The notes under the pieces are model-generated. The model was not told the DNA's origin. It saw nothing but the letters and a program-made list of their open reading frames with translations, and did no database searches. A program made the position numbers and the translations under genes. Shown in pieces: positions 50,575-52,615 of a DNA stretch of 53,596 nucleotides (its first letter is position 1; the number at the start of each line of letters is the position of its first letter). Where the stretch lies: the NCBI GenBank assembly GCA_023511725.1, contig JAIMAY010000020.1, positions 1 to 53,596 of the forward strand. Direction: 5' to 3'. The DNA comes from Alicyclobacillus sp. GTDB lineage: Bacteria; Bacillota; Bacilli; Alicyclobacillales; Alicyclobacillaceae.

Positions 50575-50641
50575 GCGGAACGGAGTTCCGCTAGGGGGGC
50601 TGGCGGCGTCAAATCGGGCCGCTAGCGGAAGCGGTTTCCGC
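50575..50641. repeat. two GCGGAA palindromes leading into the 52-bp array
   Basis: GCGGAAC / GTTCCGC with loop GGA (50575-50591) and GCGGAA / TTCCGC with a 5-nt loop (50625-50641). The pair starts 50 bases apart, and the second shares its last base with the first position of the array. Both are flanked by TAGC, or its complement, on the side facing each other. Confidence 0.8.
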
Positions 50642-50871
50642 CAACGTGGTTTTTCCGGCTTATCCGGCGCCGCGGCGCCCCGGGCGGGGCGGATAAGCTG
50701 GTTTTTCCGCCTTATGCAGCGCGATCGCGGCCTCGGTGCGGCGGATAAGCGGGTTTTTCCGCCTTATGCGGCACCGCGGCGGCTCCCGCGAGGCACATAA
50801 GCCGGTTTTTCCGCCTTATCGCGCGCTGCGGCGGCATCGTGGCGGCGCATAAGAGGGTTTTTCCGGCTTAT
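50641..50871. repeat. array of five 23-bp palindromes at exact 52-bp period
   Basis: Copies start at 50641, 50693, 50745, 50797 and 50849. Each full copy has a left arm ATAAGCNGG, a TTTTT centre and a right arm CCGSCTTAT; copy 1 keeps only the right part (GG plus T5 and arm). Copy 5 has ATAAGAGGG. The four separating spacers are each 29 bp and are all different and GC-rich (spacer 1 is pure GC, the others 24-25 of 29). Arms can also pair across spacers. The T-run follows the GC hairpin in the + direction, so terminator-like folding is possible. No cas genes are present. Confidence 0.92.
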
Positions 50872-51021
50872 CGGCACTGCGTTTGCAAAACAATTGCCGT
50901 GATTGGATATTGTGTTGATGATTGGAAGCGTGGGCTTAGGTCAGAGTAATATAGATGCCTTGGTTGGGGTTTTAGTGTTCTTCGTATATATTTTGGAAGC
51001 CACTTTATCCCCTGATCGCCT
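50872..51021. other. AT-rich segment between array and insertion sequence
   Basis: Composition changes sharply from GC-rich to AT-rich right after the last palindrome. I see no gene or motif I can support; it ends at the tentative left end of the IS. Confidence 0.5.
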
Positions 51022-52370
51022 AAAACCTCAACAGCCCATCGGTTTGTAGGCATGTTACCGTTAAATGGATGATGAGGGTTTTAACGGATGATGGTCTTTA
51101 CCGCCTTGAGTTTCTTCGGGTGCTTCCGTGGCCGGCCTCGTTTTCGCTTTCGCACCCGACCCCTCGATGTGCGGGTCGGCTTCCGATAAAGCGCAGCCAG
51201 GAACTTGTCCCATCCGTTAAACCAGTGGCTCTTGAGCAACCGTAAAATTCTCGAGAGACGGACCTTTGTCCCAAGCTCAATGCGCACGAGCTCCAGCAGG
51301 CCATAGGCGATCATCGCCAACAAGATTTGGTTCCACACGGCCGTAGGGTTATAGTTGTACAGCCGCACGACCTTGAGGTGTTGCTTCATCCATTTGAAGA
51401 ACAGTTCAATCGCCCATCGCTGCTTGTAGATATCCGCGATCTCGGTGGCCTCCAAGTCCCACCGGTTCGTCACCACGCGGTACACGCGACCTTGGTCATC
51501 CTTGTACTCCACGAGCCGCAGCTCGAACGTGTTCGTCTTGCCATATTGCAGTTGTACCCGCGCGTCCCGCGTTACGTTCGTTCCCTCAGGCATCGCAAAC
51601 TCTTCGAGAATGGTTGTTTTGGAGTTGGCCTTAATGCGGCAAACAAACTTCTGCCCATTTGTGTCCCAGTCGTGGTACATCGCGTAGTTGATGTACCCGC
51701 GATCCAAGACGTACGTTGCGTCCTTGTCCCGGACCAACTCCACTGCGCCCTCTTGGTCCGACACGGCTGCGGTCGACATCACGAACCGGTCAGGATATGA
51801 AACGTCAGGACCCAGAACCACGTATCGCATGTGGACCTTAATACCGTTCAGGTCCTTGGAACAATAGGCCCAGTCCTCCGTGCGCTTGGGCAAGCTGATC
51901 TGCGTGGAATCCACCACGTGCAATGGTCCGACTTTCGTTGACGGTGTATGCGTCCGATAGTACCTGTCCACCGCACCGAGAATCTTCAAGGCCAGGTGCT
52001 GCAACCACTCCGTCGGCAGCGACTCGAACTTCCGATGCAGGCTGGAGTAGTGAATGGAATCCAGTCCGATCAATCGCTGGAGTTCCTCGTTTGAATCGAG
52101 GTGTTCTCGGATGTCATCCAATGTCTCCAGTTTGCGAAGTTGGGCCTCGATGCTCAGTACAGCGGTAGGACCGGTGTAAAGCTTCTTGGCATACACATCG
52201 GCGAACGGATGCTGAAACTTGGCCACGTCACCGTCTCTTGTGTCCGCGAAGCGATTCAAGATCCCGATGACCTTTTCACAAGTCAATCCATACGGTAGAC
52301 TGTTACCCACGGGGAGCCTCCTTCGTGAGGGAGTGGGCAACATGCCTACTCCTTCACAATAGGAGGTTTT
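51022..52370 (-). mobile_element. IS4-family insertion sequence, about 1.35 kb
   Basis: Contains one transposase gene. Tentative ends: AAAACCTC followed some 16 bases later by GTAGGCATGTT at the left (51022-51056, + strand), and the same two words in the same order on the minus strand at the right (52363-52370 for AAAACCTC, 52339-52349 for GTAGGCATGTT), with a 3-base difference in spacing. They behave like imperfect terminal inverted repeats but I could not find a target-site duplication, so the ends are approximate. Confidence 0.6.
51081..52343 (-). CDS. IS4-family DDE transposase
   Basis: 420 aa. Start at the ATG with AAGGAG six bases upstream; 12 more codons in frame have no site. The YREK motif of IS4 transposases is intact: YKQRWAIELFFKWMK, with Tyr, Arg at +3, Glu at +7 and Lys at +14. 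The first Asp is in LHVVDSTQISLP, the second in ATYVLDRGYIN. The C-terminus is highly basic. The protein seems full length, so the element may be active. Codon use is less GC-rich than the host genes. Confidence 0.92.
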   Translation of the reverse strand: MLPTPSRRRLPVGNSLPYGLTCEKVIGILNRFADTRDGDVAKFQHPFADVYAKKLYTGPTAVLSIEAQLRKLETLDDIREHLDSNEELQRLIGLDSIHYSSLHRKFESLPTEWLQHLALKILGAVDRYYRTHTPSTKVGPLHVVDSTQISLPKRTEDWAYCSKDLNGIKVHMRYVVLGPDVSYPDRFVMSTAAVSDQEGAVELVRDKDATYVLDRGYINYAMYHDWDTNGQKFVCRIKANSKTTILEEFAMPEGTNVTRDARVQLQYGKTNTFELRLVEYKDDQGRVYRVVTNRWDLEATEIADIYKQRWAIELFFKWMKQHLKVVRLYNYNPTAVWNQILLAMIAYGLLELVRIELGTKVRLSRILRLLKSHWFNGWDKFLAALYRKPTRTSRGRVRKRKRGRPRKHPKKLKAVKTIIR

Positions 52371-52615
52371 TTCTTGCACAGCAATGAACGATGACCTATC
52401 TTTGGGCCTACCTAGGAAATCGCTACAATACCTTCATGTTGTTTGCAAACGCAGTGGGCTATTGCAGTAAATGCGGCAGGTGCATGAGGGGAAAGATTCC
52501 GTTATTAGCCGGGGACGTCTTCCCAGTACGTCGATACTACCTTAACCGCCATCAAGAGGCGGCGCTGCACGGGCAAGGAGTGAGCGGCTCTCAGCGCATA
52601 CGAGAGTTTGTGAAA

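Follow-up and report, generated by a model that had tools for sequence, protein, structure and literature searches.

The closest described relatives of the arrays reported here are REP/BIME sequences and the STAR arrays of staphylococci; in layout STAR comes nearest, though its motif is another. REPs and BIMEs are species-specific extragenic palindromes that go together with RAYT transposases and for which a role in chromosome organisation has been proposed (PMC2817692). The part of the STAR description used here (PMC3532100) presents a short intergenic motif that recurs as small arrays at a number of loci; the spacers differ from locus to locus but are of near-constant length (40-44 bp, for a unit of about 50 nt). 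On that description, our arrays share with STAR a short motif, small intergenic arrays at multiple loci and near-constant spacer length, but their motif is the dyad TAAGnC-N9-GnCTTA rather than a GC-rich staphylococcal sequence, and their spacers in the genome studied here measure 29 bp; the genera and the numbers of loci differ as well, and steps of 4, 5 or 6 whole helical turns do not figure in that part of the STAR description. With REP/BIME-2 they have in common extragenic palindromes, regularly spaced rows and species-specific sequences. However, REPs alternate in direction, carry a GTAG-type tag and come with RAYT, whereas the arrays here run in one direction at whole turns and most of the genomes that carry them lack RAYT. 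In 250 kb of E. coli sequence, REPs indeed alternated in direction, at spacings of 35-37, 52-57 and 75-77 bp. In sopC of the F plasmid, tandem 43-bp units each contain a short inverted repeat and are bound by a SopB dimer; this is a single plasmid locus served by its own partition genes, in contrast to dozens of chromosomal loci without such neighbours. The res site of Tn3-type resolvases also places dimer sites at whole-turn spacing (about 53 bp from site I to site II), but consists of three sites at one locus beside a recombinase gene.

We analysed a stretch of 53,596 nucleotides from an Alicyclobacillus sp. genome (hereafter, the window). Positions 50641-50871 contain five TTTTT-centred elements at a step of exactly 52 bp, so that the coordinates agree with the row of five 23-bp elements proposed by a first-pass annotation of this DNA (Table 1). 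The 29-bp spacers of 83-100% GC that it had described were likewise recovered by measurement, and the arms ATAAG and CTTAT are both present in four of the five elements (2-5). No Rfam family matched within the window.

Table 1. Features of the array in the window and of the adjacent insertion sequence.
Feature	Position	Strand	Description
Lead-in palindrome 1	50575..50591	.	GCGGAACGGAGTTCCGC; sequence and inverted-repeat pair I1
Lead-in palindrome 2	50625..50641	.	GCGGAAGCGGTTTCCGC; sequence and inverted-repeat pair I1
Element 1	50641..50663	+	CCAACGTGGTTTTTCCGGCTTAT; right arm only, left arm absent
Spacer 1	50664..50692	+	29 bp, 100% GC
Element 2	50693..50715	+	ATAAGCTGGTTTTTCCGCCTTAT; scored for the dyad TAAGnC-N9-GnCTTA
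Spacer 2	50716..50744	+	29 bp, 83% GC; includes GCGATCGC
Element 3	50745..50767	+	ATAAGCGGGTTTTTCCGCCTTAT
Spacer 3	50768..50796	+	29 bp, 86% GC
Element 4	50797..50819	+	ATAAGCCGGTTTTTCCGCCTTAT
Spacer 4	50820..50848	+	29 bp, 86% GC
Element 5	50849..50871	+	ATAAGAGGGTTTTTCCGGCTTAT
IS4-family insertion sequence	50875..52456	-	Terminal repeats CACTGCGTTTGCAAA / TTTGCAAACGCAGTG; not part of the array

The insertion sequence encodes a transposase (51081-52310) with a DDE_Tnp_1 domain, which scored above the cut-off of the IS4 family model NF033592 and whose best plasmid relative, from Alicyclobacillus dauci, shares 35% identity with it. Because the element begins three bases past element 5 and the array does not continue to its right, the array in the window may have been cut off by the insertion. 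No target duplication is evident. The suggestion that the array is a hotspot for insertion rests on this one IS4-family element at its right end.

The genome-wide search that the first-pass annotation had recommended revealed dozens of dispersed sites. Used as a BLAST query, the window array gave 57 matches in its own genome (G000; 2.66 Mb in 76 contigs), itself included, and the core GGTTTTTCCGnCTTAT, with one mismatch allowed, occurred 136 times, versus 0 occurrences of the reversed control pattern; the array is thus far from a chance occurrence. The sites fall into about 25 arrays, dispersed between genes and each roughly 3-15 units long, a count that comes from sequence searches and may be incomplete. 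The first bases of contigs C8, C35, C50, C71 and C75 fall inside an array; arrays therefore interrupt the assembly, and more units are likely present than were counted. The retrieved loci contained 168 clustered sites, all units within any one array point in the same direction, and 134 of 143 gaps between neighbouring sites measured exactly 52 bp. Alignment of 136 full units yielded the consensus GGTTTTTCCGCCTTATGCGGCGCGATCGCGGCCCCGGCGGGGCGGATAAGCC, and the spacers of this genome are therefore degenerate copies of one sequence. Array-specific variants exist (for example, TTTTTTCG in one array and GGTTTTCCCG in another), as do two divergent spacer types (contigs C29/C11/C75/C50 and C35c), which still keep the 52-bp step. 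The four spacers of the window array, which had been called different, are within this genome degenerate copies of one consensus. As the spacers copy one unit, the step of 52 bp stays constant inside the genome through array-wide homogenisation.

The pattern of the Alicyclobacillus genome was found in no other genome among 200 of the class, but arrays of the underlying 21-bp dyad occur in five further genomes of the order (G007, G036, G006, G017 and G050). In G007, from another genus of the family, a weak match pointed to arrays of ATAAGGCACGAAAGGTGCCTTAT-like elements with a 53-bp step, and one of these arrays has units of 63, 63 and 43 bp. A search for TAAGGC-N{6,14}-GCCTTA returned 69 sites in G007 and 15 in G036; all of the G036 sites listed had a middle of nine bases, and fixing the middle at nine again gave 69 in G007. 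We then used an open pattern, TAAGnC-N9-GnCTTA followed by TAAGnC after 16-46 bp, which detected arrays in G000, G007, G036, G006 (TAAGACG), G017 (TAAGTCG; 454 matches) and G050 (TAAGCC), the last a member of a second family. Reversed-pattern controls gave 0-3 matches per genome, and isolated matches elsewhere in the class lay at scattered spacings. The TAAG/CTTA core and the nine-base middle are constant, whereas arm base 5 is lineage-specific, differing between genomes symmetrically in both arms.

Beyond the order, a pattern scan of the genome_contigs collection retrieved nine stretches, four of which, from Paenibacillus and Cohnella, carried arrays of at least 4 units. In these arrays, three of them in Paenibacillus cymbidii and the fourth in Cohnella nanjingensis, TAAGCCGGTTTTTCCGGCTTA-like sites recur every 50-52 bp for 4-6 units and the spacers are unrelated; 4/4 arrays lie outside predicted genes. 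Across the array-bearing genomes as a whole, sister species in the same genus lacked arrays, so the distribution is patchy. The collection of papers searched contained no description of the TAAGnC-N9-GnCTTA dyad or of such repeats in Alicyclobacillus or Paenibacillus.

Several further observations were made in these genomes. One array is common to G035 and G036, which are listed as different species, within a region identical over about 610 bp (L173:1-640 on a 5-kb contig of G035, L135:850-1560 in G036); this reflects recent transfer, very close strains or contamination. A second palindrome, TGTCTTA(A/T)TAAGACA, borders many arrays of G036 (L138:1044-1750 and other loci, L133-L145); in it the same half-sites face outward, and its position next to a 51-62-51 composite is fixed. 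In G007, a tandem repeat that is nearly perfect, with lags of 30, 80 and 120 bp, lies immediately upstream of a dyad array (L100:2500-2900). Perfect 27-bp palindromes, gaaTAAGTCGGCTTTGCCGACTTAttc, were seen in an uncultured Clostridia MAG, where they form pairs (57 and 50 bp apart) that enclose 'attgctaattgct' runs (L043:3061-3139, L046:2218-2289); these probably belong to a different repeat family.

To compare spacing between genomes, we scored sites with at least 8 of the 10 fixed bases of TAAGnC-N9-GnCTTA and recorded centre-to-centre gaps of 36-80 bp. Across six genomes of the order, 535/535 gaps fell at 41-43, 50-54, 61-63 or 72 bp and 0/535 at 44-49, 55-60 or 64-71 bp, gaps inside one array not being independent since arrays grow by duplication. 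Eleven G017 loci retrieved afterwards obeyed the same rule in 89/89 gaps. The same scoring picked up 59 loose sites in 250 kb of E. coli sequence, none of them paired at 36-80 bp. When the spacers were clustered at 70% identity and periods of 7-16 bp were fitted, the best period over the resulting 45 families was 10.35 bp (R 0.90), that is, one helical turn, although the family count overstates independence because duplication propagates a period within an array and, in G036, the alternation of 51 and 62 bp may descend from one composite element. The agreement between genomes is independent of the family counts: with a single value for each genome and spacing class (n=14), R was 0.91 at 10.5 bp, a value reached in 0 of 200,000 uniform draws. 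Spacing at whole turns is thus kept independently of spacer sequence, across genomes whose spacers have no detectable similarity. This supports the proposal that all centres face one side of the helix. It also bears on a check named in the first-pass annotation, whether length is held at 29 bp while spacer sequence varies: the distance is strongly conserved, as whole turns, and the spacers within the Alicyclobacillus genome are copies of one unit. Degenerate copies with no conserved distance had been named as the outcome that would count against a special array; the copies are there, but so is the conserved distance.

For the placement of arrays, genes were called with a codon-usage script. 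None of 66 arrays overlapped a predicted gene; 27 lie between tandem genes, 18 between convergent and 7 between divergent ones, and 14 at contig or locus ends. Convergent settings outnumber divergent ones (one-sided P 0.02), and the median distance is 200 bp to a gene start versus 110 bp to a gene end. We looked beside the arrays for a recurring neighbour gene that could encode a cognate protein and found none that was consistent; only a few loosely shared families recurred. An apparent avoidance of the terminus on a first map of G007 was dropped because the locus at 36.8 kb turned out to hold a full array, which leaves the largest array-free gap non-significant (P 0.08; P 0.07 in G036).

Taken together, the sequence data make it fairly probable that the arrays are helically phased binding arrays for a putative dimeric DNA-binding protein, since whole-turn spacing with free spacers fits dimers seated on one face of double-stranded DNA. 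Each element would be a dyad site for one dimer of this putative double-stranded-DNA-binding protein, and sites placed at 4, 5 or 6 helical turns (5 turns, 52 bp, in the Alicyclobacillus genome) would bring the bound dimers to one DNA face, where they could contact one another and so bind cooperatively, or curve the DNA within a single plane. The rows, with 3-20 such sites each and present between genes at dozens of places on a chromosome, would then be probable nucleoprotein anchor points. A role in chromosome architecture is probable in view of the number of the arrays, their dispersal, their intergenic placement and the lack of a tie to particular genes. The binding array for a dimeric protein, one of the roles listed in the first-pass annotation, is thus supported as to its phased layout, its binder being putative. 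Against a phased binding array stands the existence of sister species without arrays, an odd distribution for an essential system. The absence of a recurrent neighbour gene, the growth of arrays by duplication with the possible composite origin of the G036 alternation, and the homogenisation of spacers within the Alicyclobacillus genome also count against it.

In the Alicyclobacillus genome, positions 5 and 17 could pair in 37% of 99 distinct sites, versus 40% after shuffling, so this pairing is not maintained. In G006, a hairpin is conceivable, given some complementarity at 5/17 and 8/14, which speaks against the binding-array reading, and either strand of the array folds moderately better than shuffled sequences (z -3.1 and -2.3). 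However, single-strand hairpins do not readily account for spacing at whole turns when the spacer sequence is free.

This consideration weighs on the first alternative, that the arrays are selfish intergenic palindromes of the REP/BIME kind, hairpins amplified by a nuclease or transposase and lengthened by unequal crossover, with no host function and with helical spacing as a by-product of element copying. We regard this as unlikely, though several features speak for it: the arrays are high-copy and extragenic, prefer convergent over divergent settings, differ in sequence between lineages and in presence between sister species, and fold moderately stably on both strands. However, the arms are unpaired at 5/17 in most units of the Alicyclobacillus genome, its arrays do not alternate in orientation, and the direction and spacings of E. 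coli REPs are unlike those found here. Neither the 52-bp consensus nor the units examined contain the GTAG-type tetranucleotide. A cognate RAYT (Y1_Tnp) is missing from 5 of the 7 array genomes (G000, G036, G017, G006 and G050; present in G007 and G035), and mobility by RAYT was rejected on this ground. Copying also leaves whole-turn spacing across unrelated spacers unexplained.

A second alternative, which we consider quite improbable, is an anchor for DNA gyrase or another topoisomerase, with phased AT centres and GC-rich spacers wrapping the enzyme, as reported for E. coli BIME-2. It is retained because the gyrase motif, 130 bp long, has a GC periodicity of 10.75 bp and the enzyme prefers BIME-2 (PMC6379681), and units of the Alicyclobacillus genome alternate a T-run with a GC-rich spacer. 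However, strongly GC-rich spacers were not seen in the arrays of G036 and Paenibacillus, and an enzyme that reads a degenerate GC periodicity would have no need of conserved dyad arms; the arm base is also lineage-specific.

Dimeric-site geometry and intergenic position would also suit clusters of operators for a regulator of the neighbouring genes, but this is very unlikely, given that the arrays favour convergent settings, which offer no promoter, lie farther from gene starts than from gene ends and have no recurrent neighbour genes. Lambda-type tyrosine recombinase cores have inverted 7-bp arms around a 7-bp middle, and the elements can be drawn in this 7-N7-7 form with a variable middle; yet sites that number in the dozens, stand 52 bp apart and differ in their middles would give no useful recombination, and no recombinase gene recurs beside the arrays, which makes recombination cores highly improbable. 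Equally slight is the chance of tandem intrinsic terminators or a transcription insulator, another role that had been suggested. In the Alicyclobacillus genome, each TTTTT can be drawn with a GC-rich hairpin in front of it, but in tandem settings there the T-strand runs with the genes in 5 arrays and against them in 6, a scan found no terminator-like site at the array, and the T-run is absent in relatives (centre GAAA in G007, mixed in G017); this reading was rejected. A CRISPR-type array, for which the constant repeat and spacer lengths speak, is next to impossible and was rejected by spacer homology, the spacers being copies of one unit at about 25 separate loci; the check for phage and plasmid origin that the first-pass annotation had called for found no match for the window array or for a Paenibacillus array, and the single viral_contigs match was not an array.

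Most interspersed intergenic repeats of bacteria have no agreed function. The phased binding arrays offer a clue in that 4, 5 or 6 turns are held while the intervening DNA changes freely, which points to a double-stranded, protein-bound state. We tentatively suggest, as a possibility that is more doubtful than the phased arrays themselves, that a fast-evolving, putative DNA-organising protein of Bacilli acts through them chromosome-wide, its recognition base changing between genera while the TAAGnC-N9-GnCTTA geometry and the whole-turn spacing stay fixed. If one protein binds the arrays, Alicyclobacillus-like and Paenibacillus-like bacteria would have a new way to mark or fold their chromosomes, and the recognition code would differ between genera.
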